Of a DNA stretch of 64,000 bases, positions 2,077 to 60,608 are shown piece by piece. Source of the stretch: Bacteroidia bacterium (GTDB lineage Bacteria > Bacteroidota > Bacteroidia > Flavobacteriales_D > Sanyastnellaceae). The translations under genes were made by a program, and so were the position numbers. Each line of letters starts with the position of its first letter. Within the stretch, counting starts at the first letter, position 1. A model generated the notes under the pieces. That model was not told where the DNA came from. It did no database searches and saw only the letters and a program-made list of their open reading frames with translations. The stretch is from positions 1-64,000 of the forward strand of contig JAUICJ010000006.1 of NCBI GenBank assembly GCA_030427925.1. The letters are read 5' to 3'.

Positions 2077-5000
2077 TTAACGCTCGATGAGCAAGCGGGT
2101 TTGGGCGGTGCCTTCGTCGGTGATCGCGGAGAACACGTACCAACCCGCCGATAGGTGGCCGAAGTCCCATGAGCGCGCGCCGTTCCACGGTGCCGTGACT
2201 TCATTCCAAACCCGGCGGCCCGCGCCGTCATAGACATTCAGTTCCACGGTTGAAGACCAGCCCGCCAACTCAATGGAAACCACGCCTCGGGTGGGGTTCG
2301 GGTAAACCGCCCATTGCAGGGCCTCGACCTCGCCTACACCGACCGCGTCGATGTTGATTTCGGTGAGTTCGGTTTGGCAACCGTTCGCATCCGTCACCAC
2401 CAGGGAGTAGCTGCCAGCAGCGAGTCCGGTCACATCCTCATCCGTGCTCTGGAACGTGCCATCAAGCCCCGTCCAAGCGAACGTGTAATCCGGCGTCCCG
2501 CCCGAAACGGTGACGGCAATGCTGCCTGAGTTCGAACCGTTCGCATCCGGTTCGATGGCATCCACCGTGACCTCCAAAGCTTCCGGTTCGAAGACCTCCC
2601 CGGTCCACGTTGCCGTGCAGCCGGAAGCATCCTCCGCGCAAACCGTGTACGTACCAGCGCTGAGGCCCACGAACGTGTCGTCGGTGCTGAAGTTGGTGCA
2701 ATCGAAGGCAAACGCGTAGCTGCCCGTGCCGCCGTTGGCAAAGATCTGGATGGCCCCGTTCGCCCCGCCGTTGCATGAAACATCGGACACCACCGCGTCC
2801 ACGAGGAGCGGATCGGGAGAACCGACCACCACCTCGGTCACCGCCTCGCATCCGAGCGTGTCGACCACCGTAATGGTGTACGTTCCTTGGCCCAAGCCCG
2901 TCACGCTGTTGCCTTCAAGCGTTCCCACTGCGGGCAACCACGTAAAGGTCGGCGCATTCGAGCCGCTGACATCCACCGTAAAGGCTCCGTCCGCTGTGTC
3001 AAAGCACGTCGCATCCAGCGTTCCAGCAGCGGCCACTGCCACGTCACACGTGAAGCACGATCCGTCGTCGTCTGTGGCTTCCGCGTTGTAGTTGTCCGCC
3101 AGCGGATCCGTGCAACCGAGCACCTCAAAGGCATCGCAAACGCCATCGCCGTCCGCATCCTCCAAGCAGTTGCCGTCGCAGTCGTATTCGGGCTCTGCGT
3201 AGGTGCAGCTGCCGTCCTCTTCGGTGGCCTCCTCGGCGTAGTTGCATGCCGTTGGGTCCGTGCAACCTGCCAATGGATAGATGCAGGTGCCATCGTCGTC
3301 CGTGGCCGCATCGTTGTAATTCAAGGCCGTTGCATCGGTGCATCCGAGGAGTTCAAATTCATCGCACACGCCGTCGCCGTCGGTGTCGTTCACGCACGTT
3401 CCCGTGCAGTCGTAGCCTGCATCAGCGTAGGTGCAGGAGCCGTCGTCCACGTTCGCCGCATCGTCGAAGTTGCACGCCGTCAAATCCGTACAACCGAGAA
3501 CGGGCGCCTCGCACGAACCGTCGTCGTATTCGGCGTTCGCGTCGTAGTTCGCTGCCGTGTCGTCCGTGCATCCGCAGGAGTTGTCGATCGGAGTGAAATC
3601 CCACACGCCGTTCGTGAAGGCCAGCGGGTAGCGGAGCTCGTTCTCCCCCACTCCGTTCACGAAGACTTGCATGTTCACCACGCCGCTGAGCTCGCCGCCG
3701 GTCGTGAGCTGGGCGATGAGGACGCGGTGGTCGTCACCGGCCACCCCGTTGGGACTGCCATTCAGGAGGAACCACAGACCACCGATCTCGTCGTTGAGAA
3801 CGATGTCGTTGCCGGCTTCGAATGCGGTGGTCCAGGGGGTGGGACCTTGCACGGTTTGGACTTCACCCTCACCGGTGGCCGCTTGCTGGCTCAATCCGAT
3901 GGTCACCCAGCTGTCGAAGCCCAGCTCAGGGAAGGCCGCGAGCAGCATGGGATTCGTGGCCTGCGCGAGGGCACCACCGCCAGGGTGCTGATAGAAACTC
4001 GTCGTGCTCATGATCTCGAGGATGTCATCGCTGTTGCCAAACACGGAGCTGACGAAATCATCGGTGTTCTCGGTCGTAGCATAAAGGCGGTAAGTCGTTT
4101 GACCGGCCAAAACCCCGGCCGTGTGTTCCGCCACCACCTCGATTTCCAGGCCGTACGCGGGCGCTTCGCCGTTGCACGAGCAGAAATCGCACTCCCCTTC
4201 ATCCGTAGCTGCAGGATCGTAGTTGCAGGCGTTGTCCGCTTGGCAACCGACCACCTCAAACCCATCGCATACGCCATCGCCATCGGCATCCGCGAGGCAC
4301 GCGCCGTCGCAATCGTAGCCCGCTTCAGCGTATTCACATGAAGCATCGTCCACTTCGGCCGTGGCGTCGTAGTTGCAGGCCTCGGTGTCCGTGCAGCCTT
4401 CGATGGCGTGGAGGACGGTGATGGTTTGGACGAAGACGGTGCTGTTGCCGCACGCGTCGGTTGCTGTGTAGGTCCGCTCGATCACCGTGGACTCGTCGTC
4501 CGAGGAAAGGACCACGTCCTCGCTGACCCAGCTGGCCGTGAGGTCGCAGGCGTCCTGGATGAAGGCGGCGGGGTTGGGTACGGTTTGGCCCAACGCCTCG
4601 TCAACGATCAAGTTCTCCTCCAGCGCGAGGATGAACTCAGGCCCGACGGTATCCACCACCGTAATGTACTGAACAGCAGTCGCTTCGTTGCCCGCATCAT
4701 CCACTGCCGTGAAGGTCCGGGTGCAGAAATAGTTGAACGGAGCGCAGGGCAAAATGTACTCGATGGGGCCGTCGAAGAACGAAACCTGCACATCGGCGTC
4801 GCACTCGTCAATGGCCATGGCCATTCCGGTGGGCATGTCCTGGTCGCATGTGATGGTGGAATCCGCTGGAACGTAGACAAACGTCGGCGGCGTCACATCC
4901 GGGCTGCACGGGTACGTGCACGAGCCGTCGTCGTCCGTAGCCGCCGACTCGTAGTTGATGGCCGTCGCATCGGTGCATCCAGCCACCTCGAACGGATCAC

Positions 5001-8000
5001 ACACGCCGTCGCCGTCTGCATCGGCCAAGCAGTTGCCCGCGCAGTCGTACCCCGCATCGGCATACGTGCACGCCGCCGAATCCGTGGCCGAAGCATCGAA
5101 GTTGCATGCGGTGGCGTCCTGACATCCCGCGATCTCGAACTCGTCGCACACGCCGTCGCCGTCCGCGTCATTCAAGCAAACGCCTGCGCAATCGTATCCA
5201 CTCGCTGCGTAGGAGCAAGAACCGTCTTCGTCTGTGGCGCTCGCGTCGTAATTGCACGCGGTGTTGTCCGTGCAACCGGGCACCTCATTGGCGTCGCAAA
5301 TGCCGTCCGCATCCGCATCGGCCAAACACGCACCCGAGCAATCATAAAGCGGCTCGGCATACGTGCACGAACCATCATCGTCCGTCGCGTCGGCCTCGAA
5401 GTTGCACGCCACTGCATCCGTGCAGCCTGCCACTTCGAACTCGTCACAAACCCCGTCGCCATCCGCATCGTTCAAGCAAACTCCCGCACAATCGTACCCC
5501 GACTGGGCGTACGTGCACGTTCCGGGATCGGTCGCTGCCGGGTTGTAGTTGCACGCGCTCGCGTCAAGGCAACCCGCCACTTCGAGCCAATCGCAAATGC
5601 CATCGCCGTCCGAGTCCATCAGGCAGGTGCCCGAGCAGTCGTAGCCCGGAGTGGCGTACGTGCAGGAGCCGTCGTTGTTCGTCGCGGCGAGGTCGTAATT
5701 GCAGGCGTTCGAATCCGTGCAACCCGCGACTTCGAAGGCGTCGCAGACCCCATCACCGTCCGTGTCCACAAGGCACGTCCCGTCGCAGGCGTATTCGGGT
5801 TCGGCATACGTGCAGTTGGCGGCATCATCCGTCGCCGCAGCATCGTAGTTGCAAGCCATGGGATCCAAGCATCCTGCAATTTCATTCGCGTCGCACACGC
5901 CGTCGCCATCGGCATCTTCCAGGCACGTGCCATCGCAAGCATAGCCCTCCGGTGCGTATTCGCACGCATCGTCGATGGGCAAGCTGCACGCCCCGCCGAG
6001 GTTGACGCTAACAGCCACTTCTTCTAAACCAGAATCGGTGTAGTTGAAGATTTGGACAAACAATTCGCCGTCCAAGATGCCATCGGTGGTGAATTGCCCC
6101 AACAAAACGCGGAGGTCCTCACCGGCAATTCCGTTGGTGGCACCTTGCAAATTGTACCATCCCCCTCCCGTAACGTCATCAATGACGATGTCTCCACCGG
6201 CTTCAAAATTCACCAACCAAGGATTCGTCGGGCCGGCAATGATGTTCACAGGGCCTTCGCCTGCCGAAGGGTCCGCTGGGCCCTCGACCCCAATGGTCAC
6301 CCAGCTGTCGTAGGAAACAGCGGGAAAGAAAGGCAACAAACTCGCGTTGATGCCAGTCGCAACGCCCGCACCAAATGGGTCCTGGTAAAAAGACGTCGAT
6401 GAGCTGATGACGGTGGAAGCATTGCTGTCCCCGAAGACGCCGGAAACGAAGTCGTCCGGGTTTTCACACAACGCGTAAATGCGGTAGGTCGTGAAGCCCG
6501 TCAAGTCCACCTCCCCGATCATTCCATCGTGTTCCATCACGGTTTCGATTTGGACGCAATACCCCCAATCTGCCGTGTAGTTGCATGCGTTCGGATCGCC
6601 GCAAATCGGATCGTAGGTGCAGCTGCCGTCGTACTCCGTCGCATTCTCGTCGAAATTGTTGGCCAACGCATCGGTGCATCCCAACACTTCAAACGGATCG
6701 CACACCCCATCGCCGTCGCTGTCGAGCGCGCATGCGCCTTCGCAATCGTACCCGGTTTCGGGGTAGGTGCATTGCGTGTTGTCCGTCAAGGTCGCGGATG
6801 CATCATAGTTGCATGCGCTTTCATCGGTGCAACCGAGGCAAGAGAAGAATTCGCACGAGCCGTCGTTGATGGTGGCAAAGGGGTCGTAGTTGCAGGCTGA
6901 AGGGATGACGCATCCCGTTCCGTCCGAACCGCATGAGCCATTGTCATCCGTCGCCTCGGGATCGTAGTTGGGAGCCGTCGGATCCGTGCATCCTGCCACT
7001 TCCAGCGGATTGCAAATGCCGTCGCCATCGGTGTCTTCGAGGCAGTTGCCTTCGCAATCGTAGTGGGTTGCAGGGTAGACGCAGGTGCTCGGTGCGGGCA
7101 ACGTCGCCTCCGGATCGTAGTTGCACGCTGTAGCGTTCATGCAACCCAAGCACGTCGTGTACTCGCATGAGCCGTCGGACGTCGTGGCGTCCGGATCGTA
7201 GTTGCAGGCTGTTTGGATGACGCACCCCGGGACGGCGCACTGACCGCTGTCGATGGTGGCGTCCGGATCGTAGTTGGTGGCCTCTGGATTCGTGCACCCC
7301 ACGCATGAGTTGAAGTCGCAGCTTCCATCGTTCACGGTCGCTTCTGGATCGTAGTTGCAGGCCGTGCTCACGGTGCATCCGAATTGAACGCAGCTCGTGT
7401 ATTCGCAGGAACCATCGTTGTAAAGGGCCTGCGGATCAAAGTTGCACGCGTTTGAATCCGTGCATCCGATGCATGAGAAATAATCGCACGCGCCGGGGAT
7501 CGTGGCATTGGGGTCATAGTTGCACGCGCCCGGCACCATGCAGCCCTCTCCTCCAGCCACCGCGGTCATCGTGATGGCGTGTTCCAAAACCACTTCGTCG
7601 CACGCATTCAGAACGACTACTTGAAAACCATACTCCCCTCCATTTGTGATGACGAACGGGAAATCGGTCACGGCAGCATCCCCAGTGGCCGCCCAGACAG
7701 GGTCCGACCAAGTGAAGTTCGCCACAAACGAATTCGTGGTGTCCACATCCAACGAAGCGTCCGCAGCAAGCAGCGCCGAAATGTCGTGCACATAGTACGT
7801 CGATGGGTCGTTCCCCGCGCTCGGATCGAAGTCCAACTTCGCTTGGACCGTCAAGTCGCTGAAGCTGTAACCGCCGAGGTCCAGGTACATGACCGCGCTC
7901 CAGCTCGCATCCATCGTGGTACCGCCCGCTCCGTCTGGAGCAAATCCGGCCCCAGCTGAGTAGGCCGTCCCGGTGACGCCGATGAGTCCGTCGGGATCGT

Positions 8001-8931
8001 TGGGCGTGTGGAACGACAAAATGGACGAAATCGCCCCCGCATTTCCGACTCCGATGTACGTGGACATGTCGTTGTCCGACACCCCCAACGGCAAGGAGCC
8101 CGCTTCTGCGGACAAGCCATCGAGGTTGTCCGTGTCCGGACCATAAAAGTCGCTCTCGTTGTTGCCGAAAAAGAAGGGATAATCGCAGACCGTGGTGCCA
8201 TCGCCTTCTGGAACGCAGTTCAAAGCTCCTGGGCAATCCGCGGGCAAGCTCTCGGGAATGGGGTCGAAGACTTCGGTTCCGAGGAAGGACTTGGACACGA
8301 TGAACTCGTTTTGGCCATTGCCTTCTGGGAAGATTTGGACGTTGAAGGTTCCGGAAATCGTGCCGTTGGTGGTCAACTGTGCAATCAAAACCCGCTTCGA
8401 CTCACCCGCGATGCCGTTGGGGCTGCCATTCAGGATGTACCAAACACCTCCCGATGGGCTGGCCAACGACATCCCCGATGCCGCGCTCGTGGAGATGAAG
8501 CTGTCGACCCACGGTTCGTTCGGGCTGGCCACCGTCGAAATGGTGGTTTGGTTCCCCGTTGGCACTTGATCGATGCCGATGGTCACCCAGCTATCGAACT
8601 CGAGCTGCGGAAAGAACGGATAAAACGCTGGATTGACTCCGTCAGCGGTGCAACCGCTGGCGAACTCGCAATTGTACAACGTCCCGTCCAGGATTTCAAG
8701 ATCCATGGGCGTGCCCTGATCTCCGAAAACCGCGGAGACGAAATCCGTCTCGTGCTCGGTCTCCACATAAATCCTATAAGTCGTGTAGCCCGCAAGGTCC
8801 ATGGACCCGACCATTCCGGTGTGTTCCTCCAACACGTCGATGGAGAGGTTGTACTGGGCTTGGACACCTGCAATGAGGCAGGTTGCTAGCATCGCTGCCA
8901 GCAGGCCCTTTAAGGTGTTGATTTGCTTCAT
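2077..8931 (-). CDS. Giant T9SS-secreted Cys-rich repeat protein, about 2284 aa
   Basis: I prefer the ATG at 8929-8931, because MKQINTLKGLL..AGVQA is a compact signal peptide; an in-frame ATG lies 27 bp upstream at 8956-8958. Domain order by nt: recurrent TTYR/FDSWVTIG domain (8860-8270), unassigned region (8265-7560), Cys-rich modules (7560-6560), second TTYR domain (6560-5990), seven or so tandem 150-bp Cys/Asp modules (5980-4910), two HYR-like beta units (4905-4400), a short Cys block, third TTYR domain (4160-3600), more Cys modules (3570-3050) and three SprB-like repeats (3045-2340). The C-terminal T9SS type A sorting domain has AVYPNPTRG and ends RLLIER. About 12 DxDGDG.CD loops suggest calcium binding. 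Export by T9SS and surface attachment follow from the sorting domain; the molecular role is unknown. Confidence 0.92.
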   Translation of the reverse strand: MKQINTLKGLLAAMLATCLIAGVQAQYNLSIDVLEEHTGMVGSMDLAGYTTYRIYVETEHETDFVSAVFGDQGTPMDLEILDGTLYNCEFASGCTADGVNPAFYPFFPQLEFDSWVTIGIDQVPTGNQTTISTVASPNEPWVDSFISTSAASGMSLASPSGGVWYILNGSPNGIAGESKRVLIAQLTTNGTISGTFNVQIFPEGNGQNEFIVSKSFLGTEVFDPIPESLPADCPGALNCVPEGDGTTVCDYPFFFGNNESDFYGPDTDNLDGLSAEAGSLPLGVSDNDMSTYIGVGNAGAISSILSFHTPNDPDGLIGVTGTAYSAGAGFAPDGAGGTTMDASWSAVMYLDLGGYSFSDLTVQAKLDFDPSAGNDPSTYYVHDISALLAADASLDVDTTNSFVANFTWSDPVWAATGDAAVTDFPFVITNGGEYGFQVVVLNACDEVVLEHAITMTAVAGGEGCMVPGACNYDPNATIPGACDYFSCIGCTDSNACNFDPQALYNDGSCEYTSCVQFGCTVSTACNYDPEATVNDGSCDFNSCVGCTNPEATNYDPDATIDSGQCAVPGCVIQTACNYDPDATTSDGSCEYTTCLGCMNATACNYDPEATLPAPSTCVYPATHYDCEGNCLEDTDGDGICNPLEVAGCTDPTAPNYDPEATDDNGSCGSDGTGCVIPSACNYDPFATINDGSCEFFSCLGCTDESACNYDASATLTDNTQCTYPETGYDCEGACALDSDGDGVCDPFEVLGCTDALANNFDENATEYDGSCTYDPICGDPNACNYTADWGYCVQIETVMEHDGMIGEVDLTGFTTYRIYALCENPDDFVSGVFGDSNASTVISSSTSFYQDPFGAGVATGINASLLPFFPAVSYDSWVTIGVEGPADPSAGEGPVNIIAGPTNPWLVNFEAGGDIVIDDVTGGGWYNLQGATNGIAGEDLRVLLGQFTTDGILDGELFVQIFNYTDSGLEEVAVSVNLGGACSLPIDDACEYAPEGYACDGTCLEDADGDGVCDANEIAGCLDPMACNYDAAATDDAANCTYAEPEYACDGTCLVDTDGDGVCDAFEVAGCTDSNACNYDLAATNNDGSCTYATPGYDCSGTCLMDSDGDGICDWLEVAGCLDASACNYNPAATDPGTCTYAQSGYDCAGVCLNDADGDGVCDEFEVAGCTDAVACNFEADATDDDGSCTYAEPLYDCSGACLADADADGICDANEVPGCTDNTACNYDASATDEDGSCSYAASGYDCAGVCLNDADGDGVCDEFEIAGCQDATACNFDASATDSAACTYADAGYDCAGNCLADADGDGVCDPFEVAGCTDATAINYESAATDDDGSCTYPCSPDVTPPTFVYVPADSTITCDQDMPTGMAMAIDECDADVQVSFFDGPIEYILPCAPFNYFCTRTFTAVDDAGNEATAVQYITVVDTVGPEFILALEENLIVDEALGQTVPNPAAFIQDACDLTASWVSEDVVLSSDDESTVIERTYTATDACGNSTVFVQTITVLHAIEGCTDTEACNYDATAEVDDASCEYAEAGYDCDGACLADADGDGVCDGFEVVGCQADNACNYDPAATDEGECDFCSCNGEAPAYGLEIEVVAEHTAGVLAGQTTYRLYATTENTDDFVSSVFGNSDDILEIMSTTSFYQHPGGGALAQATNPMLLAAFPELGFDSWVTIGLSQQAATGEGEVQTVQGPTPWTTAFEAGNDIVLNDEIGGLWFLLNGSPNGVAGDDHRVLIAQLTTGGELSGVVNMQVFVNGVGENELRYPLAFTNGVWDFTPIDNSCGCTDDTAANYDANAEYDDGSCEAPVLGCTDLTACNFDDAANVDDGSCTYADAGYDCTGTCVNDTDGDGVCDEFELLGCTDATALNYNDAATDDDGTCIYPLAGCTDPTACNYAEEATEEDGSCTYAEPEYDCDGNCLEDADGDGVCDAFEVLGCTDPLADNYNAEATDDDGSCFTCDVAVAAAGTLDATCFDTADGAFTVDVSGSNAPTFTWLPAVGTLEGNSVTGLGQGTYTITVVDTLGCEAVTEVVVGSPDPLLVDAVVSDVSCNGGANGAIQIFANGGTGSYAFAFDCTNFSTDDTFVGLSAGTYTVCAEDASGCTATWTGEVFEPEALEVTVDAIEPDANGSNSGSIAVTVSGGTPDYTFAWTGLDGTFQSTDEDVTGLAAGSYSLVVTDANGCQTELTEINIDAVGVGEVEALQWAVYPNPTRGVVSIELAGWSSTVELNVYDGAGRRVWNEVTAPWNGARSWDFGHLSAGWYVFSAITDEGTAQTRLLIER
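4910..5980 (-). repeat. Tandem 150-bp Cys/Asp module array
   Basis: Seven consecutive coding repeats lie about 147-153 bp apart, judged from the recurring CACACGCCGTCGCC-type block at about 5001, 5148, 5297, 5450, 5594, 5744 and 5896. Each encodes one GCTD..ACNYD...DGSC...YDC.G.CL.D.DGDG.CD unit. Similar blocks occur in this gene at 6560-7560 and 3050-3570, in the gene at 1-1180, and more divergently in 52746-60470. Confidence 0.85.
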
Positions 8932-9061
8932 GTAAGCGGTTTTTGTGAATTGCTTCATGGATGGATGAATTTGACGCCAATTGCTCGACGCGAAGTTCTT
9001 TACGGCAGAAAGCCCGCGCAGGTTTCATTCGTTTGATTCTTACCCAACAAGCACAAAAAAA

Positions 9062-9088
9062 ACCGGCTCCCAAAATGAGAGCCGGCTT
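9062..9088 (-). terminator. Rho-independent terminator of the 802-aa gene
   Basis: A GAGCCGG/CCGGCTC hairpin (9063-9069 with 9079-9085) is followed on the minus strand by a run of eight T (complement of 9055-9062). It lies 23 bp beyond the stop at 9111. Confidence 0.8.
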
Positions 9089-9110
9089 CACAATTCAATT
9101 TCAGTAGGCG

Positions 9111-11519
9111 TCAGTCACGCTTCACCAATTGAAGCGACTCGCGCCCCGATTCGGTAGAAAGGTGGAATTGATAGAACCCATTGGCAATGCCAGAAAGGTC
9201 CATCATGAATTGGAAATCCCCAACGCGGTTTCCGAACGCTTCGCTGTACACCGCGCGACCTTGCATGTCGGTCACTTCAATCGCCAACCGCTCGCCGCGC
9301 AACCCTTCAAGGCTGACTTGGAACAAGCCCGTGCTCGGGTTGGGGTAAACGGCTACGCGCTCAGCAATCGAGAGGTCCGCAACGCCCAAAGCGATTTCAA
9401 CCTCGTAAGTGGTCTCGCAATCGTTGCTGTCGGTCACCGTCACGCTGTACCCTCCAGCGAAGGCCCCCGTGATGTCCTCGTCCACGGAGAAGAAGTTGTC
9501 GGGTCCGGACCATACGAACGTGTAAGGAGCCGTACCGCCCGTTACCGTGATGTCGATTTCGCCGTCACCCGTTTCATCCGCATTGACAACCGTGGACGTC
9601 ACTTCAATGGCATCCGGCTCAGAAACGGAGGCCGTAGCTTCTGCGCTGCAATTGTTCTGATCCTGTACGTAAATGGTGTACTCGCCCGGAGCCGTTGCAG
9701 GGAAGGTTCCACCCGCCACAAAGTTCACCCCGTCGATGCTGAACGTGTAGCTGCCTGTACCTCCCGTAGCCGAACCCGAAACGAAGCCGTCGGCTCCACC
9801 GTTGCATGCGATGTCGGTTGCCGTAGCCGTAGCCACCACCGGTGCAGGGTCGACCAATTCAACCGACTCTGTGGTTACGCAATCGTTCACGTCCGTGACC
9901 GTCACTTCGTACGTTCCAGCATCCAAATCCCCGAACAGGGACTGGTCCATGGCGTCCTCGCCATTGAAGGTGAACGCGTAGCCACCCGAACCTCCTGAAG
10001 CAGCGAAGGTCACCGAACCATCGGCAGCGCCGGTGCAGCTGATGCCCTCAGATGACAGCGTCAAATCCAATGCCATCGGCGCACCAATGGTCACGGGATT
10101 GGCTGTTTGGCCGGTGCAGCCGTTCACGTCCGAAACGTACACCGTGTAGGTGCCCGCCCCGACGTACAGAACGGATCCGTTGTTGTTGGTGCCTGTCGTG
10201 TAGTTCACCTGGTCCACGCTGTACTGCAGGCCCGTCGAGCCCGGCGTGCCGCCCACGGTGGTCACCAAAATGGTGCCGTCCTCCGAATCGGAGCACGAAG
10301 CGCTCGTAGAATTCGTCACGTACACGTTGATGACCGGGGGATTGTTGATGAAAATGGCCGGTGAGCTCGCCGTGCAACCGTTCTCGTCCTCCACGTAAAC
10401 CGTGTAGTTGCCCGAGGGCAGCCCCGTGAACTCCAAGGTTTCAGAAGGGTTCGAGAAGGTGTTGTCGTTCAAGCTGAACATCAGGTTGCCGGTTCCACCC
10501 GTTGCCGTGCCTCCGATGACTGCGTCTGAGTCGCCGTTGCACGACACCGCGCTTTCCAACACCGCGCTCACGGCAAGCGGAGCCGGTGCAACCACTTCAA
10601 ATTCCAAGGTGTCCACGCAACCTGCACCATCGATGCCCACGATGTAGTGAGCGCCGGCTGGCAGGTCATCGAAGTTCGGATTGGTGAAGGAAGGCGTTGC
10701 TCCATCAATGCCGTAAGTCACTCCAAATTGACCTCCGGTTTGTGCCACGGTGATTTCACCATCGGACAAGCCTGGGCAGGAAATCGAAGTCAACGAGCCG
10801 GGCGAAAGCACCAACGCGCAAGGGTAGTTGCACGGACCTTCCGCCGTCGCATCGGGGTTGTAGTTCTCGGCGGCTTCATCCATGCAGCCGAAAATGGCTC
10901 CGGAGTCCGAAGAGAACAGGAAGCCCTCTGCTTGCTGCTCGTTCGATTGGTTGCCCTCAACGAAGATCTGAATGTTGAAGGAGCCTTGGAACGTGCCCGA
11001 AGTCGTCAACTGCGCGATGAGCACTTTCAAATCATCGCCCGCAATGGAGTTGGGGTCCGTGGTCACGAACCACGAGCCGCCGAATTGGTCGTCCAAGATG
11101 AGGTCCCCCCCGCTGTTGAAGCTCTCCAGAGGAGCCACCATGCCCACCGTACCGACGTTCCCCAAAACGGGGTCACCTGGTGCGTATCCGATGGTGAGCC
11201 AGCTGTCGTACTCTGCTTCAGGAAACGCGGTGAAAAACAGCGCGTTCACCCCCTGCCCCAAGTCGTCCCCGAAGGTGGAGTTGAAGAAACCGTTTTCCGA
11301 CGTCAACGAGAGCGGAGCCGTTTCGTCGCCATAAACAGCTGACACCTTGTCCGTAGGGTTCGTCAAATCAGCGTAAACCCGGTAGGTCTTCATGCCCGCC
11401 AAGGACGCAATGCCCGTCGTATCGTGGTCCGCTACTTCGACTACCGAGTAGCCCACCAATTGGGCTTGGCTCAGGGAAATCATGCCCAAAGCCATCGCAG
11501 ATAGGATCAGTTTCTTCAT
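9111..11519 (-). CDS. T9SS-secreted SprB-repeat protein, 802 aa
   Basis: The signal peptide is MKKLILSAMALGMISLSQA. One recurrent TTYR domain follows (nt 11465-10920; motifs TYRVYADL, AEYDSWLTIGY, AGDDLKVLIAQLTT). Then comes a single Cys module (GCMDEAAENYNPDATAEGPC). Next are five or six SprB-type repeats (nt 10800-9420), each with the pattern C.G..DG.....GGTG.Y.F....G.YTV.V.D.NGC. A T9SS type A sorting domain follows (AVYPNPSTGLF, ending LQLVKRD). SprB repeats occur in the mobile gliding adhesin of Flavobacterium, so a cell-surface adhesive role is plausible, but whether the organism glides is not shown here. It is monocistronic, with its own promoter and terminator. Confidence 0.9.
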   Translation of the reverse strand: MKKLILSAMALGMISLSQAQLVGYSVVEVADHDTTGIASLAGMKTYRVYADLTNPTDKVSAVYGDETAPLSLTSENGFFNSTFGDDLGQGVNALFFTAFPEAEYDSWLTIGYAPGDPVLGNVGTVGMVAPLESFNSGGDLILDDQFGGSWFVTTDPNSIAGDDLKVLIAQLTTSGTFQGSFNIQIFVEGNQSNEQQAEGFLFSSDSGAIFGCMDEAAENYNPDATAEGPCNYPCALVLSPGSLTSISCPGLSDGEITVAQTGGQFGVTYGIDGATPSFTNPNFDDLPAGAHYIVGIDGAGCVDTLEFEVVAPAPLAVSAVLESAVSCNGDSDAVIGGTATGGTGNLMFSLNDNTFSNPSETLEFTGLPSGNYTVYVEDENGCTASSPAIFINNPPVINVYVTNSTSASCSDSEDGTILVTTVGGTPGSTGLQYSVDQVNYTTGTNNNGSVLYVGAGTYTVYVSDVNGCTGQTANPVTIGAPMALDLTLSSEGISCTGAADGSVTFAASGGSGGYAFTFNGEDAMDQSLFGDLDAGTYEVTVTDVNDCVTTESVELVDPAPVVATATATDIACNGGADGFVSGSATGGTGSYTFSIDGVNFVAGGTFPATAPGEYTIYVQDQNNCSAEATASVSEPDAIEVTSTVVNADETGDGEIDITVTGGTAPYTFVWSGPDNFFSVDEDITGAFAGGYSVTVTDSNDCETTYEVEIALGVADLSIAERVAVYPNPSTGLFQVSLEGLRGERLAIEVTDMQGRAVYSEAFGNRVGDFQFMMDLSGIANGFYQFHLSTESGRESLQLVKRD

Positions 11520-11554
11520 CTATTCTCTGAATTGTGAATTGCTTTCAATCGCAC

Positions 11555-11562
11555 CAAATATA
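11555..11562 (-). promoter_or_regulatory. Bacteroidota -7 box (TATATTTG)
   Basis: The minus-strand TATATTTG is an exact match to TAnnTTTG, about 35 nt before the ATG of the 802-aa gene. No clear -33 TTTG was found. Confidence 0.55.
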
Positions 11563-11598
11563 AACCCATTGATTGACTTGGAAGGAGATTGTTGCCGA

Positions 11599-11619
11599 GT
11601 GAATAATGCACTTATTCAC
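11599..11619. promoter_or_regulatory. Perfect 8-bp inverted repeat GTGAATAA-N5-TTATTCAC
   Basis: The two arms at 11599-11606 and 11612-11619 are perfect inverted copies. The centre is about 60 bp upstream of the start expected from the TATATTTG box at 11555-11562, a typical activator position. The regulator is unknown. Confidence 0.35.
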
Positions 11620-11650
11620 AACGCCAAGCCGCGGCGCTGTTCATAAAAAA

Positions 11651-11675
11651 AAGGGAGGCCACAGAGGCCTCCCTT
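11651..11675 (-). terminator. Rho-independent terminator of the 584-aa gene
   Basis: AAGGGAGGCC pairs with GGCCTCCCTT around a 5-nt loop. On the minus strand eight T follow (complement of 11645-11652). It lies about 20 bp after the stop at 11696. Confidence 0.85.
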
Positions 11676-11695
11676 TCCTTTCAATTCAAATGCAC

Positions 11696-13450
11696 TCAGT
11701 GCTTCACCACCGTCATCACCGTGCGGCGGTCACCCGCCAGCAATTCCAGCGCGTAGACGCCCGTTGCAACGGTTGACGTGTTGAGTTCGACGCGCGCATG
11801 GGCTGCGCCCATTACGTTTTGGCTCAACACCACGCGCCCCATCATGTCCACGAGTTGAATGGAAGCCACTTCAGCCACCGCATTCACTTCCACAATGAAC
11901 TGATCCTCAAACGGATTCGGGTACGCCAAGAGCGTTCCAGCCGTCAAGTCCGCCACGTCAGCAGGACCGCCAGCGCAGTTCAAGCAGGAGTTCCAGCAGA
12001 CCGCACCAAGCACTTCCGCAACGCCCGAGCGCGTGTGCTTCCGGTTGTACTCACCGAAACCGTTCGGCACTCCGCAACCGGCCGTTTCGAACGTCGTCGA
12101 GTCGGTTCCCACCACGAGGATGCCGCTCTCTTCCAGCGCATCGGCACCATTTGGCACGCCGTTGACGAACTTGTAAAAGATGTCAGCCGATCCCGAAATG
12201 TTGACCGTCGCTTCGTAGACCATGTCTTGGTCGTCGTCGCTCATCATGATGGCACCCGATTGCCAAGCCGGCGAAGTGAAGCTGCCCATCAAGTAAACGC
12301 CGTCGGCTGAAACCGTTTCGTTCGCCATGTCCAACCGGAACGTGATGTCCGCGGGGTCTGGGTTCTCAACGCAATCCGAAGCGCACGAATTGTAGCAGTA
12401 CAACACTTCCATCGATTCCGTACCGACGATGATTTCGCGGTTATCCGATCCTGCTGCAGCGCAATCCCCCGTGATCAATTCGTTGTCCACGTCACCGGCA
12501 CCACCGCCACCCCAGTCGGTGCCGTTGATGAACTTGTACTGATACGTGCCCGGCGCCAGCTCGAGTGTGGCCTCGTAAATGAGGTCGCCGTCGTCGTCGC
12601 TCAACATGTTCGCACCGGGTGTCCACCCTTGGAAGCTGCCTGCGACGCACACGCCATTCTCTGAGATGACCTCCTGCGTACTCATGTCCACGCGGAACGT
12701 GACCATCGTCGGAGCGACGCACGAACCACAGCTGCTGAAGCAGTGAGGCGCGCCCGTTCCAGCCACCCCCGTAACGATGGTGCTTTCCGTGATTTCGAGC
12801 ACGCGGTTACCCGCAGCATCCGCGCATTCCGCGCCGACCAGCAGGTCCTGAGGATCCGTCCAACCGTTCCCGTTGATGTACTTGTATCCGATGACGCCGC
12901 CGGTTCCCGTCGTGTCAATGGTGGTCGTGTACGTGTAGACCAAATCCCCATCGTCGTCCATCATCTCCGTATCCCCCGGCATCCAGCCTTGGAAATCCCC
13001 TGCGATGTGAACGCCGTTCGGCGAAATCGCCGCCTCTTGTGACATGTCCACACGGAACATGACCGTGATTTCGCCACACGCAGCGCACTCCCCGTAGCAG
13101 ACCGCGTATGAGGCGTCGCCCACCGCCGGATCGACCGTGATCGCGCGGTTGTTGTTCACGGCGCACGGAGCCGGAATGCCCTCGTCCATGCCCCAAGCGT
13201 TGCCGTTCACGAACTTGAACTCGTAAGTCGCCGCCGTGTCTGTCGTGAACGCGTATTCGTAAACGCCGTCCATGTCCGCGTCCGTCATTTCCGTTGCAGC
13301 GGGGTCCCAGCCTTGGAAACTACCGGCAACGTGCACGCCCTCGGCGGCCACGGTTTGGTTCTGCATGTCCACCGATAACGTCACCGTCACCTGCGCGGAA
13401 GCTGCGAACGCCGTGCCCAAGAGCGCCAGCATCGTGTAAAACTTCTTCAT
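11696..13450 (-). CDS. T9SS-secreted protein with four starch-binding-like modules, 584 aa
   Basis: The signal peptide is MKKFYTMLALLGTAFAASA. Four copies of a module of about 115-125 residues follow. Each carries V.F.VDM, then GVHVAGSFQGWDP, then an acidic M.DDDGD.VYE stretch, then Y.YKFINGN.W, and ends in a Cys-rich tail (CYGECAACG, CFSSCGSC, CYNSCASDC, CWNSCLNC). The G-S-F-x-x-W and Y-K-F-x-N-G pattern is that of CBM20/CBM48-like alpha-glucan-binding folds. A T9SS sorting domain closes the protein (AYPNPFEDQF, ending TVVKH). The module family is recognised by pattern only. The divergent GH13 amylase next door supports alpha-glucan binding at the cell surface, which is inference. Confidence 0.88.
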   Translation of the reverse strand: MKKFYTMLALLGTAFAASAQVTVTLSVDMQNQTVAAEGVHVAGSFQGWDPAATEMTDADMDGVYEYAFTTDTAATYEFKFVNGNAWGMDEGIPAPCAVNNNRAITVDPAVGDASYAVCYGECAACGEITVMFRVDMSQEAAISPNGVHIAGDFQGWMPGDTEMMDDDGDLVYTYTTTIDTTGTGGVIGYKYINGNGWTDPQDLLVGAECADAAGNRVLEITESTIVTGVAGTGAPHCFSSCGSCVAPTMVTFRVDMSTQEVISENGVCVAGSFQGWTPGANMLSDDDGDLIYEATLELAPGTYQYKFINGTDWGGGGAGDVDNELITGDCAAAGSDNREIIVGTESMEVLYCYNSCASDCVENPDPADITFRLDMANETVSADGVYLMGSFTSPAWQSGAIMMSDDDQDMVYEATVNISGSADIFYKFVNGVPNGADALEESGILVVGTDSTTFETAGCGVPNGFGEYNRKHTRSGVAEVLGAVCWNSCLNCAGGPADVADLTAGTLLAYPNPFEDQFIVEVNAVAEVASIQLVDMMGRVVLSQNVMGAAHARVELNTSTVATGVYALELLAGDRRTVMTVVKH

Positions 13451-22987: not shown

Positions 22988-22991
22988 GCAG

Positions 22992-22999
22992 CGAAGTTA
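22992..22999 (-). promoter_or_regulatory. -7 box (TAACTTCG) 4 nt before mutA ATG
   Basis: One mismatch to TAnnTTTG; the spacer CTGC leads directly to the ATG, implying a leaderless mutAB mRNA. Confidence 0.45.
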
Positions 23000-23031
23000 A
23001 GGAGTGCGCCGTGCGAGGCTTCGCACGAAAG

Positions 23032-23059
23032 AAAAAAGCCAGCGCGTAAAGCGCTGGCT
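23032..23059 (-). terminator. Rho-independent terminator of the FISUMP gene
   Basis: AGCCAGCGC / GCGCTGGCT with a 5-nt loop; on the minus strand the stem is followed by TTTTTTC (complement of 23031-23037). It lies about 97 bp after the stop at 23156 and just ahead of the mutA promoter. Confidence 0.8.
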
Positions 23060-23155
23060 TCTCTCTTAGGCTGCAAGTTTCCCTGATCATCGCAGAAAAC
23101 GTGATTGCCACCTTCCTTTCGAATTTGATCATGAATCGACCTCAGCCAACTGAAA

Positions 23156-26100
23156 TCAATCCCGAATGCAGCGAATCATGAATCCCGTGTTGTATTCACT
23201 AGATCCCGAAGTCACTGCGTCGGAGGATGTGAGCTTCATGTGGTTCGCCTCCAATGTCCCTTCATTGCCTGTGTTTGCAACCCAGAAATGGGTTTCATTA
23301 AATGGACTAGAGGGTTCCCATCCATTGTTTCCTTTGTACGGGCTTGGAACTGCGTTGAAGTAATCGATCGTCGATGAACCATTCCAATCAGTTGAAGACT
23401 TGAGGAATGCACCAGCCGTTGATGCTCCTCCGTAGAAGTTCAAAAGTGTCGTCCAGTCGGCTTGGTCAGCCACACTCCAACCGGTTGGGCAAACTCCTGC
23501 CGAACTCTTCACAACATAGTAATTGTACAAGTATCCAACATCACTCGGACCATAGGCTGCATTCGCATTGTTTGTCACCCAAGAATTCGGGATGGCGGTT
23601 CCGTCCGAATAGGAGGAGGTGATCAAGTTTTCATCCATCCAGCACTGCCCACCAATGAGTACCGTGCCATAGGTATGGCCGTTGTACGTCACAGTTGGGA
23701 TGTCACAAGGGGTAGGACCTGAAGAATACGTCCAATTGAACTCATCGGATTCCAAATTGCCGTTTCCAGCTGCATCATTAAACGAACCTGCAGCAATGCT
23801 GATCGTACAGTCGCCGTCAGCATCAGGAGTGAACGTTGCGGAGTACGAAGAGCCAGCCCCTGTGAACGAAGAAATGACACCATTGGTAACCGTCACATCT
23901 TCTGCTGTGAAGTCCGTTGTTGCCTCCGAGGAGGTGAACGTCAAAGTGAGCGACGCATCGCTTGATGAGTCGCCATCAGAGACCTCCGAAGCCGTGATGC
24001 TGATGGCGGGAGGAGTCAAATCGAGGCTGATCCAGAAAAACTGGTCCGCAGCAATGCTGGCGTTCTGAGATTCATCTGAAAACGCGCCTGCAGCAACTTC
24101 GATGGCGCAATAGCCTGGCCCATCAGGCGTAAAGGTCGCTGTGTACGTCGTGCCCGAACCGGTGAATGCCGAAATCGATCCATTCAGCACCGTGATGTCT
24201 GCTGCATCGAAATCTGACGTGCTCTCTGATGCGGTGAACGTCATCGACAACGATGCATCCGGAGATGTTCCACCATCCATGACTTCCGCCGCCTCAATCG
24301 TCATCGTCGGCGGGGTCGCATCGGCTGCGAGGACGCAACGCACGGAAAACCCAGATCGCTTGTTGTAGTTGCCCTGAGCGATGATGTTGAGGTCGGTATA
24401 GAGTACGCGGCTATTGGCATTGCTGACGTCGCTGGCGTGGGGCGAGGAACTCCACCAGTTGCCGCTCGAACCGGCACTGTTGAAGTCTCCATTGGAGGAC
24501 TTGCGCGAGCCGCCCGGTAAACCCGAAAAACCACTGCTATTCGTACCGTCCCATGCGGGGTCTTCCATGGCAGCGGACTTCATCTTGCTCCCTGCGGCAC
24601 CTAAGCCACCCAAGTAAGTGGTCAACGTCGTCCATTCATCGTGTGTGGGCACAGACCAACCCGAGGGGCACAATTTGCCCGTGTTGACCGCATACCAATT
24701 GTACAACCGACCATAGGTCGCCAAATTCGTGGCTTCATTCGCACCGCCTTCGTCATAAATGGTCATCGCTCCATCTGTAGTGTTGGACCACGCCGCATTG
24801 TCCAACCCACTCGGGATGACTGCCTCATCGTTGTAGTTGGTGGACCGCAAGTTCTCCGCAAACCAACATTGTTCGCCAATCAGGACGGTTGCGTAATCAT
24901 AGCCGTCGTAAGTCATGACATCCCCACACGTATTGAATTCCGCAGCCCCGCCAGAGGCGGCCTGCAGCTCCTGGATTAATCCCTCCAAATAAGCAATGGT
25001 ATCCGAAAGGGCGACAATCGCGCGCTCGTTTGTGAAGTACAGGTTCGACGAACCTTCCGTCAAGACGTCGGTGTCGTGGTTGGAGAGGTCGCCGATTTGG
25101 CCATTGATCACGTCCATGACGCTCAGGCTGTCCGCCCACAACGTCGCCGCGACGTTCGCGCCCGAGCCGACCACTAAGCTGTCGTTCAACGTCGTAACAC
25201 CGTCAACAACCAACGTGCTGTTCAACGACGTGGCGCCATCAACATTGAGATCTAGGTCAACGTTAACGTCGTCATGGAAATCGGCTTGTCCGTTAACATC
25301 CAACGTGCTGCTCAACGACGTAGCGCCATCAACGTCCACGTCATCATCGAAATAGGAATATCCGTAAACATTCAACGTGCTGTTCAACGACGTAGCGCCA
25401 TCAACATTGAGAACTAGGTCAACGTTAACGTCGTCATGGAAATCGGCTTGTCCGCTAACATCCAAGGTGCTGTTCAACGACGTAGCGCCATCAACGTACA
25501 AGTCGTCATAGAAAGAGGAATATCCACTAACATCCAACGTGCTGTTGAGCGTCGTAGCGCCATCAACGTCCACGTCATCATCGAAATAGGAATATCCGTA
25601 AACATTCAACGTGCTGTTCAACGACGTAGCGCCATCAACATTGAGATCTAGGTCAACGTTAACGTCGTCATGGAAATCGGCTTGTCCGCTAACATCCAAG
25701 GTGCTGTTCAACGACGTAGCGCCATCAACATTGAGATCTAAGTCAACGTTAACGTTGTTATGGAGATCGGCTTGTCCGCTAACATCCAACGTGCTGTTGA
25801 GCGTCGTAGCACCGTCAACGGTCAATGAATACGCCGCGATGTCATCGAAGGTGACGTCGTCTGTCGTGCCGACAGCTTGACCAATTGAAATCTCTCCTTC
25901 GTCCAGTGTCACGCCTGTTCCCGCGGTGAAAGCATCTTGAGCCCGGGACTCGGTGAAGTACAGGTTGGTGGTGCCTTCAGACAAGGCATCGGTGTCGTGG
26001 TTGCTCAAGCTTGAAACGCGTCCGTTGATGACATCCGTGACCGCGATGCTGTCGGCAAACAACGTTCCGTCAATCACGGCATGGCCGTTGACGGTGAGGC

Positions 26101-26587
26101 TGTCCGTAAAGAGCCCTTTTCCATCCACTTTCAAGAGTCCAGATCCTTCCAAATCCAGAACAACGTCCTCATCTAAAGCGAAGATTGAATCCACATGAAG
26201 CCCCGACTGAAGGGTCAAACTGCCTTGGACAACCCCGTCTTTCATCAAGATCAAACTGTCGGCGGAAAGCGTACCATCCGCTCCGAAAGAGCCCACACCA
26301 AGAATGTCGTACCCGCTGTAATTGACGTCCATTCCTGGGTTGCTGCCATTTTCAAGAATGGTGGACCAACCACTGTTGGCTGCTCCCACGCTGAGGTAGT
26401 AAAGCTCGTTGATTGCATCTTGCAGGTTATTCGCTCTAATCTCTAGATAAGCCCTGTTTCCTTGAAAATTCGTGACCACTACTTGCGGCGGACTCGCATC
26501 AGGTTCGCTTTGTGCTAATCCTTGGACAGACCATCCAATGAGCGTGACCGTTGCAACCACGTGAAGGAGATAAATTATCCGTTTCAT
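23156..26587 (-). CDS. Secreted FISUMP protein on a tail-fibre-like repeat stalk, 1143 aa
   Basis: The signal peptide ends VQGLAQ. Residues about 185-250 and 465-530 carry SNHDTDALSEGTTNLYFT-type motifs typical of phage tail-fibre and similar beta-stalk proteins. Between them (about 252-462) lie nine or so tandem units of 24 or 30 residues (DGATSLNSTLDVSGQADF...). Residues about 547-755 form a FISUMP (Fibrobacter succinogenes major paralogous) domain (CGDVMTYDGYDYATVLIGEQ, CWFAENL, WYAVNTGKLCPSGWSVP). Two bacterial Ig-like domains follow (757-950; ATPPTMTIEAAEV, TPPAISITASEV). A second FISUMP domain (958-1143) ends FMIRCIRD. There is no T9SS sorting domain. The gene looks noticeably more AT-rich than its neighbours. 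Likely an extracellular adhesive or binding protein; the ligand is unknown. Confidence 0.88.
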   Translation of the reverse strand: MKRIIYLLHVVATVTLIGWSVQGLAQSEPDASPPQVVVTNFQGNRAYLEIRANNLQDAINELYYLSVGAANSGWSTILENGSNPGMDVNYSGYDILGVGSFGADGTLSADSLILMKDGVVQGSLTLQSGLHVDSIFALDEDVVLDLEGSGLLKVDGKGLFTDSLTVNGHAVIDGTLFADSIAVTDVINGRVSSLSNHDTDALSEGTTNLYFTESRAQDAFTAGTGVTLDEGEISIGQAVGTTDDVTFDDIAAYSLTVDGATTLNSTLDVSGQADLHNNVNVDLDLNVDGATSLNSTLDVSGQADFHDDVNVDLDLNVDGATSLNSTLNVYGYSYFDDDVDVDGATTLNSTLDVSGYSSFYDDLYVDGATSLNSTLDVSGQADFHDDVNVDLVLNVDGATSLNSTLNVYGYSYFDDDVDVDGATSLSSTLDVNGQADFHDDVNVDLDLNVDGATSLNSTLVVDGVTTLNDSLVVGSGANVAATLWADSLSVMDVINGQIGDLSNHDTDVLTEGSSNLYFTNERAIVALSDTIAYLEGLIQELQAASGGAAEFNTCGDVMTYDGYDYATVLIGEQCWFAENLRSTNYNDEAVIPSGLDNAAWSNTTDGAMTIYDEGGANEATNLATYGRLYNWYAVNTGKLCPSGWSVPTHDEWTTLTTYLGGLGAAGSKMKSAAMEDPAWDGTNSSGFSGLPGGSRKSSNGDFNSAGSSGNWWSSSPHASDVSNANSRVLYTDLNIIAQGNYNKRSGFSVRCVLAADATPPTMTIEAAEVMDGGTSPDASLSMTFTASESTSDFDAADITVLNGSISAFTGSGTTYTATFTPDGPGYCAIEVAAGAFSDESQNASIAADQFFWISLDLTPPAISITASEVSDGDSSSDASLTLTFTSSEATTDFTAEDVTVTNGVISSFTGAGSSYSATFTPDADGDCTISIAAGSFNDAAGNGNLESDEFNWTYSSGPTPCDIPTVTYNGHTYGTVLIGGQCWMDENLITSSYSDGTAIPNSWVTNNANAAYGPSDVGYLYNYYVVKSSAGVCPTGWSVADQADWTTLLNFYGGASTAGAFLKSSTDWNGSSTIDYFNAVPSPYKGNNGWEPSSPFNETHFWVANTGNEGTLEANHMKLTSSDAVTSGSSEYNTGFMIRCIRD
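25200..25830 (-). repeat. Tandem 72/90-bp coding repeats in the FISUMP stalk
   Basis: About nine in-frame units encode DGAT(S/T)LNSTL(D/N)V followed by a short variable part. Units are 24 residues (ending VDVD or LYVD) or 30 residues (ending VNVDLDLNV). Several long stretches are near-identical in nucleotides, for example around 25410-25480 and 25650-25720, which points to recent duplication. Confidence 0.85.
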
Positions 26588-27042
26588 CTGTATGAATGTT
26601 GATAATTCAAAGATAAAATGCCCTATCCAATCGACGAGTAAAACTACTTTTCACAAACTCTCAGAATGAGAATTTGTGGAATTCGTCACACATTTGGTGG
26701 TCTGAATACCCCCCTTGTCATATGACATCACCACCCAAGCTAAACCGATCATAATCAGATACTAACGAATGGAGTTGACGAACCCATCCGAATTTAACCT
26801 GAAATCAACACAGCATTCGAATTCACACATTCTGCCCTTGATTTCACATAATTAATCGACAGAATCCCGACGAACACCTCGCTGAAGCCCCAACTGCAGC
26901 CTCACGAGGGAAATTCGACGAACACAATTTGCCGAACAGATCATATGTTCGGGTAGCCAGATAACCGACAAGCCAGGCTGCCTTGCTTCCAATGCCCACT
27001 CCAGTCGCAAAAGACATGCCTCGAATCAAACAAGATCATGCC
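26588..27042. other. AT-rich intergenic region, no gene seen
   Basis: This 455-bp gap separates the divergent FISUMP gene and csaA. It holds the FISUMP promoter box (26608-26615) and a perfect 12-bp palindrome TGTCATATGACA at 26716-26727. Short open frames in it have no signal, family or repeat pattern that would support coding. It is clearly more AT-rich than the flanking housekeeping DNA. Confidence 0.5.
26608..26615 (-). promoter_or_regulatory. -7 box (TATCTTTG) of the FISUMP gene
   Basis: An exact TAnnTTTG match on the minus strand, 20 nt before the ATG at 26587. Confidence 0.55.
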
Positions 27043-27384
27043 ATGAAGCCCCTCACCCAACCCGACTCCTTCCACGCTGCAGACATCCGAATCGGGACCC
27101 TCTTGCACGCCGAACGAAACGAGACCGCCATCAAAACCGCGTTCGTGCTGCACATCGACTTTGGTGAAGAATTGGGGGTATTGAAATCCTCAGCCCAAAT
27201 CACGGCCCACTACACCGCCGAGTCCCTCATCGGGCGGCAAGTCGCGGCGGTCGTCAACTTTCCGCCACGACAAATCGGCAAGATGCGATCGCAATGCCTG
27301 GTCCTCGGCGCGGTGGAATCCGGTGGCGGCGTGGTGCTGCTCGCCCCGGATCGGCCCGTTGCGAATGGTACGCCGGTGGGATAG
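27043..27384 (+). CDS. csaA: CsaA-like tRNA-binding-domain protein, 113 aa
   Basis: A small OB-fold (EMAP-II type) protein related to Bacillus CsaA, which acts as an export-related chaperone and binds tRNA in vitro. I start at ATG 27043 (MKPLTQPDSFHAADIRIG), because the family aligns from there; the frame is open from 26983. Diagnostic motifs are VDIR(V/I)GT-like ADIRIGTLLHAE, VLHIDFGEELGVLKSSAQIT, HYTAESLIGRQVAAVVNFPP and RQIGKMRSQCLVLGA. Length is typical. It stands alone between the AT-rich gap and the HAD phosphatase gene. Confidence 0.9.
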   Translation: MKPLTQPDSFHAADIRIGTLLHAERNETAIKTAFVLHIDFGEELGVLKSSAQITAHYTAESLIGRQVAAVVNFPPRQIGKMRSQCLVLGAVESGGGVVLLAPDRPVANGTPVG

Positions 27385-52745: not shown

Positions 52746-55700
52746 TCAGTTGCAAGAGGTTCCGTAGAACTGGAAGAACTCAAGCAGGTCGTTCACGTTG
52801 ACTTCGCCGTTCTCGTCGAGGTCAGCAGGGCACGGATCTGGGTAATCGCAACCACCGGGGTAGTTCGCGTTCACATTGTAATCCAATCCCTCTGGATCCA
52901 TGCAACCCACGATCACGCAGCTGCCATCGTCTTGGCTGGCAACTGGGTTGTAGTTCGCAGCGCCAGAGTCGGTGCAGCCTTCGTAGATGCAGCTGCCGTC
53001 ATCGACCAGAGCCGTATCGTCGTAGTTCACCGCGTCCGCATACGTGCAACCTGCGTAGAACGTCACCAACACGTGCTGGTTGAAGGTCGTGCTGTTGCCG
53101 CATGCATCCGTGATGGTGTAGACGCGAGACAATTCGAATCCGTAAACGCCTGACGCTGCATACGTGTCCTCGGTTTCGATGCTGTACTCGCTGCAATCTT
53201 CAATCACTTCCAATTCAACCAACTGAGGCAGGGTTTGGTCCGTGTAGTACACCAAGCTGATTTCGTCGGAACCGACGACTTCAGGTGCGGTGTTGTCCTC
53301 CAAAGTGATGATTTGAACATCTTGGGAGAAGTTGCCGCAACCATCGGTAGCCGTCCAAGTACGGGTGATGATGTTGTCATTGAAGCAAGAACCTTCGCTC
53401 GTTGAAACCGCGTCCTCATAAGTGAGTTCGATGTCAGCAGAGCAGATGTCAGCAGCATCGGTTACTTCACCCGTCAAGGAGAGGTCGGACAAGTCCGTTC
53501 CGCATTCCAAGGTCACGTCAGCAGGTGCCGTGAAGGTCGGAGCAATGTCGTCCGTGAAGACGATCATTTGCGTGCTCGACGTGCTGTTGCCGCATGCGTC
53601 AGTCGCCGTGAAGGTCCGCAAAATGCTCATGGCACCCGTGCAGGTCATGGACGAATTGACGTCGATGTAATCCACCGTTACTGCAGAACAACCATCCGTA
53701 GCAGCCGGGAGGTCGGTGGGCAGCGCCTCACCACATCCCAATTCAATCGTTTCAGCGACCGCTTCCATTTCAGGTGCCGTCGTGTCGATGAACTGGATGA
53801 ATTGAACCGCAGAAGTTGCATTGCCACATCCATCGGTGACCGTCCACGTCCGACGAATGACATCGTCAGCGAAGCAACCATCAGCACTGGTTTCAATGAC
53901 GTCCTCGTGAGAAACCGTCAGTTCACTCATGCAGTTGTCGGCCAAGTCCGTAGGCTCACCCATCGCTGCAGTCGAAGCATCCGCGCCGCATTCGACCGAT
54001 GCATCAGCAGGAGCCGTGAAGGTCGGGGCCTCCGTGTCAGCGTAGGTGACCGTTTGCGTCGCAACCGCCGTGTTGCCGCAACCATCCGTTGCCGTGAAGG
54101 TGCGGATCACTGCTGCCATGCCCGTGCAGTTCGTTTCGCCGGCTGACTCAGACACCGTCACTGTGACACCGCTGCACGCATCCGTTGCCTCTGCCATGTC
54201 CGTTGGAATCGCATCACCGCAAGCGATGGAGATGTCCGCAGGCACACTCGTGAAGACCGGCTCCACTTCGTCGACGATGGTGATGGTCTGGGTAGCAGTC
54301 GTGGTGTTGCCGCACTCATCCTCAGCAGTCCAGGTCCGGATGATCACGTCACCAGCGAAACAAATGTCCTCACCCGCAGCATCGCTGTATTCGATCGTCG
54401 CAGAACCGCATCCGTCCATCAGATTGGTCACGTCACCCGTCAAGGCCAAATCCGTTGCGTCAGCACCGCAAGCGATGGTTGCGTCAGCAGGTACCGTGAA
54501 CGTCGGTCCCGTGATGTCCTCTACGGTGATGTTCTGGACGATGGAAGCTGAATAGCCCACGTTGTCCGTAACCGTCCACGTCCGAACAATGGTGTAGCTG
54601 TTGGGGCAAGAGCCCGGAGTCACCACGTCGACAAAGTCGAAGTCGAGTTCAGAATCGCAGTTATCGGATGCCACAGGGAAGACGTATTCCGTTTGGATGG
54701 CTTCGCAAGTCGTCGTGTAGTGCTCGACGCTCTCGATGACAGGAGAGCTGTTGTCGAACAAGCAGACGTCATCGCAGGACGCTTCGTTCGTCACGTAGTA
54801 GCAGTTGCCGTCGTCGGTGACCGCTTCCTCGTCGTAGTTGCACGCCATCTCATCCGTGCAAGCGCAGTAGGGCGAGCCCCATGACATGCTGACGTACTTC
54901 GTGCTGCCTGCAGCCAAACCTTCTGGGAAGATCTGTGCATACAACTGGATGTTCAAAGTACCAGGCGTGGTCAACTGAGCGACCAGCACCCGGTTGTCGT
55001 CACCTGCAACACCATAAGCATCGCTCGTTTCAGCAGACAAGTACCAACCGCTTCCGACCACGTCGTCGATGACGATGTCCGAACCGGATTCAAACGCTCC
55101 GATCCATTCCGGGTCAGAACCTCCCAATTGAGTGGGGACCTGGATGGAAGACACGGGCGTGTTTTCACCAATCGTAACCCAAGAATCGTACTCCAACGTT
55201 GGGAATGACGCGAACAGCGCAGCGTTCGGCCGGAATTCCGTTCCGTAAATGTCTTGGAAGAACTGGCTAGACGAAGCCAACACAATCGGATTCAAATCGT
55301 TACCGAGCAGCGCGTTCAGGCGGTCCGTCGGGTTCGCCGTCGTCACGTAGACGCGGTAGGTGGTCATGCCTGGGATGCCATCCACAGCCACTTCTTCGAT
55401 TTCGATGCCGTACTCGTCATCGCTCGAGAAGAGGATTGGGCAGCTGCAGTAGTCACAGAAGTCCTGTGAAGGCTGCTCCGCCGTCGGGTCGTAGTTGCAT
55501 GCCGTTGCATCGTTGCAACCCTGCAACGCATCGCAAATCAAGTCGCTGTTTTGGTCGAGGCAATTGCCATCGCAATCGTAACCGAAATCAGCGTAGGTGC
55601 ATGAGCCATTGTCGGTGACCGCGTTGGGTGCGTAGTTGCACGCCATAGCATCCGTACATCCCGAGCAATCTTCGGTGAAGAAGCACGAGCCATCGTTGTC

Positions 55701-60470: not shown

Positions 60471-60490
60471 TATTCCTAGGTTAAGCGACC

Positions 60491-60498
60491 GAAAATTA
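60491..60498 (-). promoter_or_regulatory. Possible -7 box (TAATTTTC) of the 2574-aa gene
   Basis: One mismatch to TAnnTTTG, 20 nt before the ATG. A CTTG lies about 20 nt further upstream on the minus strand at the expected -33 spacing. Confidence 0.35.
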
Positions 60499-60608
60499 CG
60501 AAATATCGACCCAACAAACAAGCACAACGGCGGGAAAATCGCCTCCGTCGAAAAAAAAAGACGATTCGACGCATGAAGAAGACCCCGCTAAGCCCCGCAA
60601 TACTTGCG

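Follow-up and report, generated by a model that had tools for sequence, protein, structure and literature searches.

A modular FISUMP-headed fibre gene of a genus-expanded family in a Sanyastnellaceae bacterium, and the probable DGR ancestry of its variable heads

Between the housekeeping genes mutA and csaA of a Bacteroidia bacterium (Sanyastnellaceae; assembly GCA_030427925.1, contig JAUICJ010000006.1) stands a long gene that raises the question of what kind of fibre it encodes, how it came to occupy this site, and how its heads came to vary. The window analyzed here is the first 64,000 nucleotides of that contig. A preliminary description had proposed a FISUMP adhesin on a phage-tail-fibre-like stalk in an AT-richer island, to be explained by a recently acquired or fast-evolving recognition fibre. 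The reading favored here, with moderate confidence, is that of an exported, probably trimeric surface fibre from a genus-expanded family, with FISUMP heads that carry a variable patch linked to diversity-generating retroelements (DGRs) and a variety that now resides in parallel genes.

The open reading frame at 23156-26587 (minus strand, as are all of its parts) encodes 1143 amino acids and represents a modular fibre/adhesin gene. It begins with a signal peptide (26507..26587), judged by eye from the sequence, with MKRIIYLLHVVATVTLIGWSVQGLA before the cut and QS after it. The N-terminal cap domain that follows (26207..26491; residues 33-127) was matched by no Pfam model and is defined by a profile family of 13 proteins in the genome (one further weak partial match aside), in the tree of which the present cap forms the longest branch. 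The chain continues with the motif NLYFTESRA (25940..25966), a stalk of 24/30-residue VDGATxLNSTLxV repeats delimited by repeat analysis (25148..25840), and the motif NLYFTNERA (25019..25045), the NLYFT(E/N)xR motifs of the preliminary description thus occurring once each. A predicted helix or coiled coil (24956..25027), seen as a helix in a low-confidence stalk model, precedes FISUMP head 1 (24332..24937; PF09603 and an AlphaFold2 model), the hypervariable C-terminal part of which (24335..24520) matches DGR template repeats from sister genera. Two Big_12 Ig-like domains (23726..24316; Pfam) then separate head 1 from the C-terminal head 2 (23159..23707; Pfam and alignment), to which it is 34% identical, and the arrangement of two FISUMP domains split by Ig-like domains is thereby confirmed. 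Beyond the gene, a hairpin followed by a T-run (23029..23060; minus strand; dG -21.6 kcal/mol), not picked up by the pattern scan, is a likely intrinsic terminator and probably ends the fibre transcript.

Membership in the FISUMP proteins is clear, with 201 bits for PF09603 on the whole protein (cut-off 33.9; two domains) and 179 for TIGR02145 (curated cut-off 41.65). Like other FISUMP/Fib_succ_major proteins, it scores far above both cut-offs in two stretches, has conserved cysteines, and is exported; unlike them, it carries its heads on a capped repeat stalk and belongs to a large family in which stalks and heads evolve separately. Phage proteins annotated with a FISUMP domain match strongly as well (E 4e-21). 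FISUMP matches were also seen in MAGs labelled Woesearchaeota, Bacilli, and Mollicutes (L058, L063, L066, L069-L071, L075), pointing to either binning error or wide transfer.

The AlphaFold2 model of head 1 (mean pLDDT 96) found its best PDB match in the C-terminal domain of Lcl, followed by many C-type lectins, all of them weak matches (E 0.018 and probability 0.28 for that to a C-type-lectin-like domain), and searching solved structures by sequence, with a profile of the head, returned nothing convincing. The Legionella Lcl adhesin (PMC11162425) likewise has an N-terminal region, a long repeat stalk, and a C-terminal head (trimeric in Lcl), and Lcl_C passes its Pfam cut-off in a single paralogue, L084 (36.8). 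However, the Lcl stalk is collagen-like, and Lcl_C (PF07603) stays below its cut-off in the present protein (15.1 bits against 34.9). The T9SS sorting domain Por_Secre_tail had no Pfam match in the fibre protein and is present in window neighbors. At 2077-13450 of the window, three consecutive proteins bear T9SS sorting domains; two have SprB repeats (one of these also TSP3) and the third has carbohydrate-binding modules. A 2593-residue protein with HYR_4C domains is encoded at 52746-60527 (minus strand).

In the stalk, VDG(A/V)T opens a repeat nine times, with 30, 30, 24, 24, 30, 24, 30, and 12 residues from one start to the next, so that the nine 24- or 30-residue units counted earlier hold as starts, but only seven are full units. 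Near-identity of the repeat DNA was borne out by a 234-bp block repeated at 97% identity, on account of which the stalk has probably changed in length recently. Its structure model is poor (pLDDT 55). Over the repeats, the stalk matches the phage structural family PHROG_697 (E 2e-19) and shares 36-40% identity with YadA-domain structural proteins of cyanophages, a cyanophage fibre being similar too, and the comparison with phage fibres was therefore apt. YadA_head, a domain known from trimeric adhesins, forms repeats in two relatives that share the cap, from two genera (L151 of G001, E 1.8e-36; L169 of G065, E 4.4e-35), which suggests that the present fibre may be trimeric. In contrast to YadA-type adhesins, the present protein has its head at the C-terminus, where no YadA anchor barrel was matched by Pfam and the chain ends in FISUMP; it thus lacks the mark of a type Vc trimeric autotransporter.

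The gene has a large kindred. Besides the 13 copies in its own genome, the cap profile found at least seven in the genus-mate G001; G013 has a single copy, as does each of seven genomes from a further genus, and the cap is present in 10 of the 114 family genomes overall. The fibre protein has 91 tblastn matches in its own genome, and 99 of the 114 genomes contain a FISUMP domain, which is most numerous in the genus of the present genome (counts of at least 26). Copy number is approximate because contigs often end within fibre genes, as would be expected if repeats break assembly. For one paralogue pair, on contigs C24 and C10, differences at fourfold sites amount to 31/221 in the stalk (14%) versus 67/93 in the head region (72%; p = 2e-23); in this pair, on which the contrast was measured in place of the gene at 23156-26587, stalk and head have separate histories. 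Some cap proteins end in domains without a Pfam match (L083, L171). L083 and L156 are cap/stalk-type fibres without FISUMP heads, and their C-terminal domain, which has no Pfam match, looks C1q/TNF-like by eye. In L174 (1097-3796; contig C3 of the present genome), repeats that match DUF2345 come after part of the cap motif.

The closest relatives of head 1 are other heads of the same genome. When the few head pairs compared, three in number, were pooled, the last ~36 codons showed 68 non-synonymous to 13 synonymous differences versus 148 to 101 in the core (p = 4.5e-5), and the cores differ as well. The heads thus evolve fast, as had been supposed of the recognition fibre, recognition itself being the role they would plausibly serve. 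Fib_succ_major domains have been reported as DGR targets, and the Bacuni phages possess 35-residue variable repeats at the C-terminus (PMC4159848, PMC8143477). Like these targets, including those with DUF1566, the present heads have their variable residues at the C-terminal end of the same domain, and sister genera possess the template and reverse transcriptase; the present case differs in its many paralogues and in that several heads are internal to the protein.

A clear example of such a system is seen in G013, where the FISUMP C-terminus has an Asn-rich template copy beside a reverse transcriptase with YVDD and IGNLTSQ motifs. Mismatches between this template and a 257-residue FISUMP protein fall on 29 of 57 adenines versus 2 of 141 other bases (p = 9e-17); with template, reverse transcriptase, and adenine-biased target all in place, G013 carries a DGR. 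Similar pairs of template and reverse transcriptase occur in G014, G074, G119, G043, G091, and G092, and a related reverse transcriptase was found in 11 of the 114 genomes. In the sister genera, the template repeat corresponds to the last ~60 codons of FISUMP. In G119, a DGR was noted with at least five tandem FISUMP genes beside its template and reverse transcriptase (L233; G119:C2:212500-220637).

The variable columns of the heads match those of the templates: columns in which four or more of the six templates have Asn show an entropy of 3.08 bits in the heads of the present genome versus 1.31 elsewhere (p = 8e-8). Mismatches of the gene at 23156-26587 to the G013 template, which comes from another genus, fall on 26 of 56 adenines versus 40 of 137 other bases (p = 0.03). 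Searches of the present genome with RVT_1 and the G013 enzyme revealed no reverse transcriptase, and no template was found either, the best match to that of G013 (71%) being coding FISUMP. If templated mutagenesis from AAY codons were active, an excess of pyrimidines at third positions would be expected, and no such excess was seen at the template-Asn columns (0.65 versus 0.65, fourfold codons of the genome's heads). The heads accordingly show no codon fingerprint of recent adenine mutagenesis, and the case for DGR ancestry comes from the column matching and the relatives. Since the columns match and the fingerprint is missing, we favor an old DGR ancestry, with duplication, recombination, and selection acting afterwards; the heads are probably a multi-copy repertoire of DGR ancestry, and the DGR would have been lost in this genus rather than gained late in its sisters.

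The main rival holds that an active DGR is present in the strain, escaped detection since assemblies break at template and variable repeats and short contigs go unbinned, and still rewrites the heads. It draws on the same column matching, on the several contigs of the present genome that end inside the fibre family, on the position of the G013 DGR at the end of a 3.5-kb contig, and on a fragment of a DGR-type reverse transcriptase, with 70% identity to the G013 enzyme, at the start of contig C60 in the genus-mate G001. We consider it unlikely, given that the genome is 99.5% complete and yielded neither enzyme nor template, that the heads lack the pyrimidine fingerprint and differ in their cores too, and that homology of the G001 enzyme breaks off just past YVDD.

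The arrival of the gene at its present site can be read from comparison with relatives. In G001, which has no orthologue there, only ~40 bp separate the starts of mutA and csaA, the HAD, aminotransferase, and permease genes come next as they do here, and the segment at 22988..27042 is thus an insertion. The synteny comparison counted 35 relatives in which mutA directly adjoins csaA or the HAD gene and the slot holds no FISUMP gene; surroundings are conserved, and the gene itself is lineage-specific. Only the present genome and G003, of another genus, have a FISUMP gene in the slot, and the G003 protein is a different one that has its own N-terminal part. The two insertions are best read as separate events, although a gene present in the common ancestor and lost many times since may also account for them. 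The G003 gene (L134, 10044-13394; G003:C17), upstream of mutA, encodes an exported FISUMP-tipped protein, the N-terminal half of which appears phospholipase-D-like by eye, and the slot is a possible insertion hot spot.

Had the entire gene been acquired horizontally in recent times, whether from a phage or from some other bacterium, this would fit its absence from the corresponding site of the genus-mate, the cyanophage-like stalk repeats, and the base composition. The gene has a GC of 0.524 and a GC3 of 0.597, compared with GC3 values of 0.83-0.86 for the mut genes and 0.69-0.73 for csaA and the next two genes, and upstream GC (26588-26982) falls to 0.43; the AT-richer gene and gap of the preliminary description were therefore real, and the 455-bp length given for the gap holds if the ATG at 27043 is the csaA start. 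However, paralogues are also AT-richer than most housekeeping neighbors (GC3 0.63-0.77) and have upstream DNA with a GC of 0.43-0.55, and AT-richness is largely a trait of the whole family, with the present copy the most extreme. Foreign origin on composition alone was dropped once the paralogues had been measured, and upstream DNA as a shared cassette was ruled out by a sequence unique in the genome. With a 13-copy resident family shared with the genus-mate, a head 1 that groups with heads of the same genome, neighbors without a mobile-element gene, and only one chance-size 9-bp match in the search for target-site duplications or inverted repeats, acquisition from outside is quite improbable. 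What endures of the original proposal is a lineage-specific insertion with phage-like stalk repeats and fast heads; the foreign gene does not. It is highly improbable that the protein serves as a tail fibre, whether of a prophage, of a contractile injection system, or of some similar particle, for the PHROG_697 and cyanophage similarities are confined to the repeats, whereas the protein has a signal peptide, its neighbors are housekeeping rather than phage structural genes, and its relatives are dispersed bacterial loci that also begin with signal-like leaders.

Returning to the favored surface fibre, the cap would anchor it at the cell and start the beta-repeat stalk, after which the NLYFT junctions and short coiled coil would lead the chain into a head in which Ig-like domains separate the FISUMP domains and which may bind a ligand. 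The fibre family has expanded in the genus, and its copies would arise by duplication to further loci, in this case the one between mutA and csaA. Stalks would be homogenized and lengthened by recombination among near-identical repeats, while heads would be exchanged between copies and diverge. The FISUMP head would present its hypervariable patch, the last ~60 codons, which is the same patch that the DGR rewrites in sister genera, and head variety in this genome is now most likely maintained across many parallel genes by diversifying selection.

It is tempting to suggest, more tentatively, that the genus has swapped a receptor-mutating retroelement serving one or a few receptors for a large library of fibre genes, the heads of which descend from DGR-rewritten FISUMP and the diversity of which is kept by recombination through shared stalks, much as in receptor gene families. 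If right, this would connect two bacterial routes to surface-receptor diversity, namely retroelement-targeted hypermutation and paralogue recombination, and would offer about 20 genera in which the gain, use, and possible loss of DGRs on one domain could be compared. FISUMP, on which little functional work was found in the literature, would thereby gain a testable role as the variable binding tip on a fibre.
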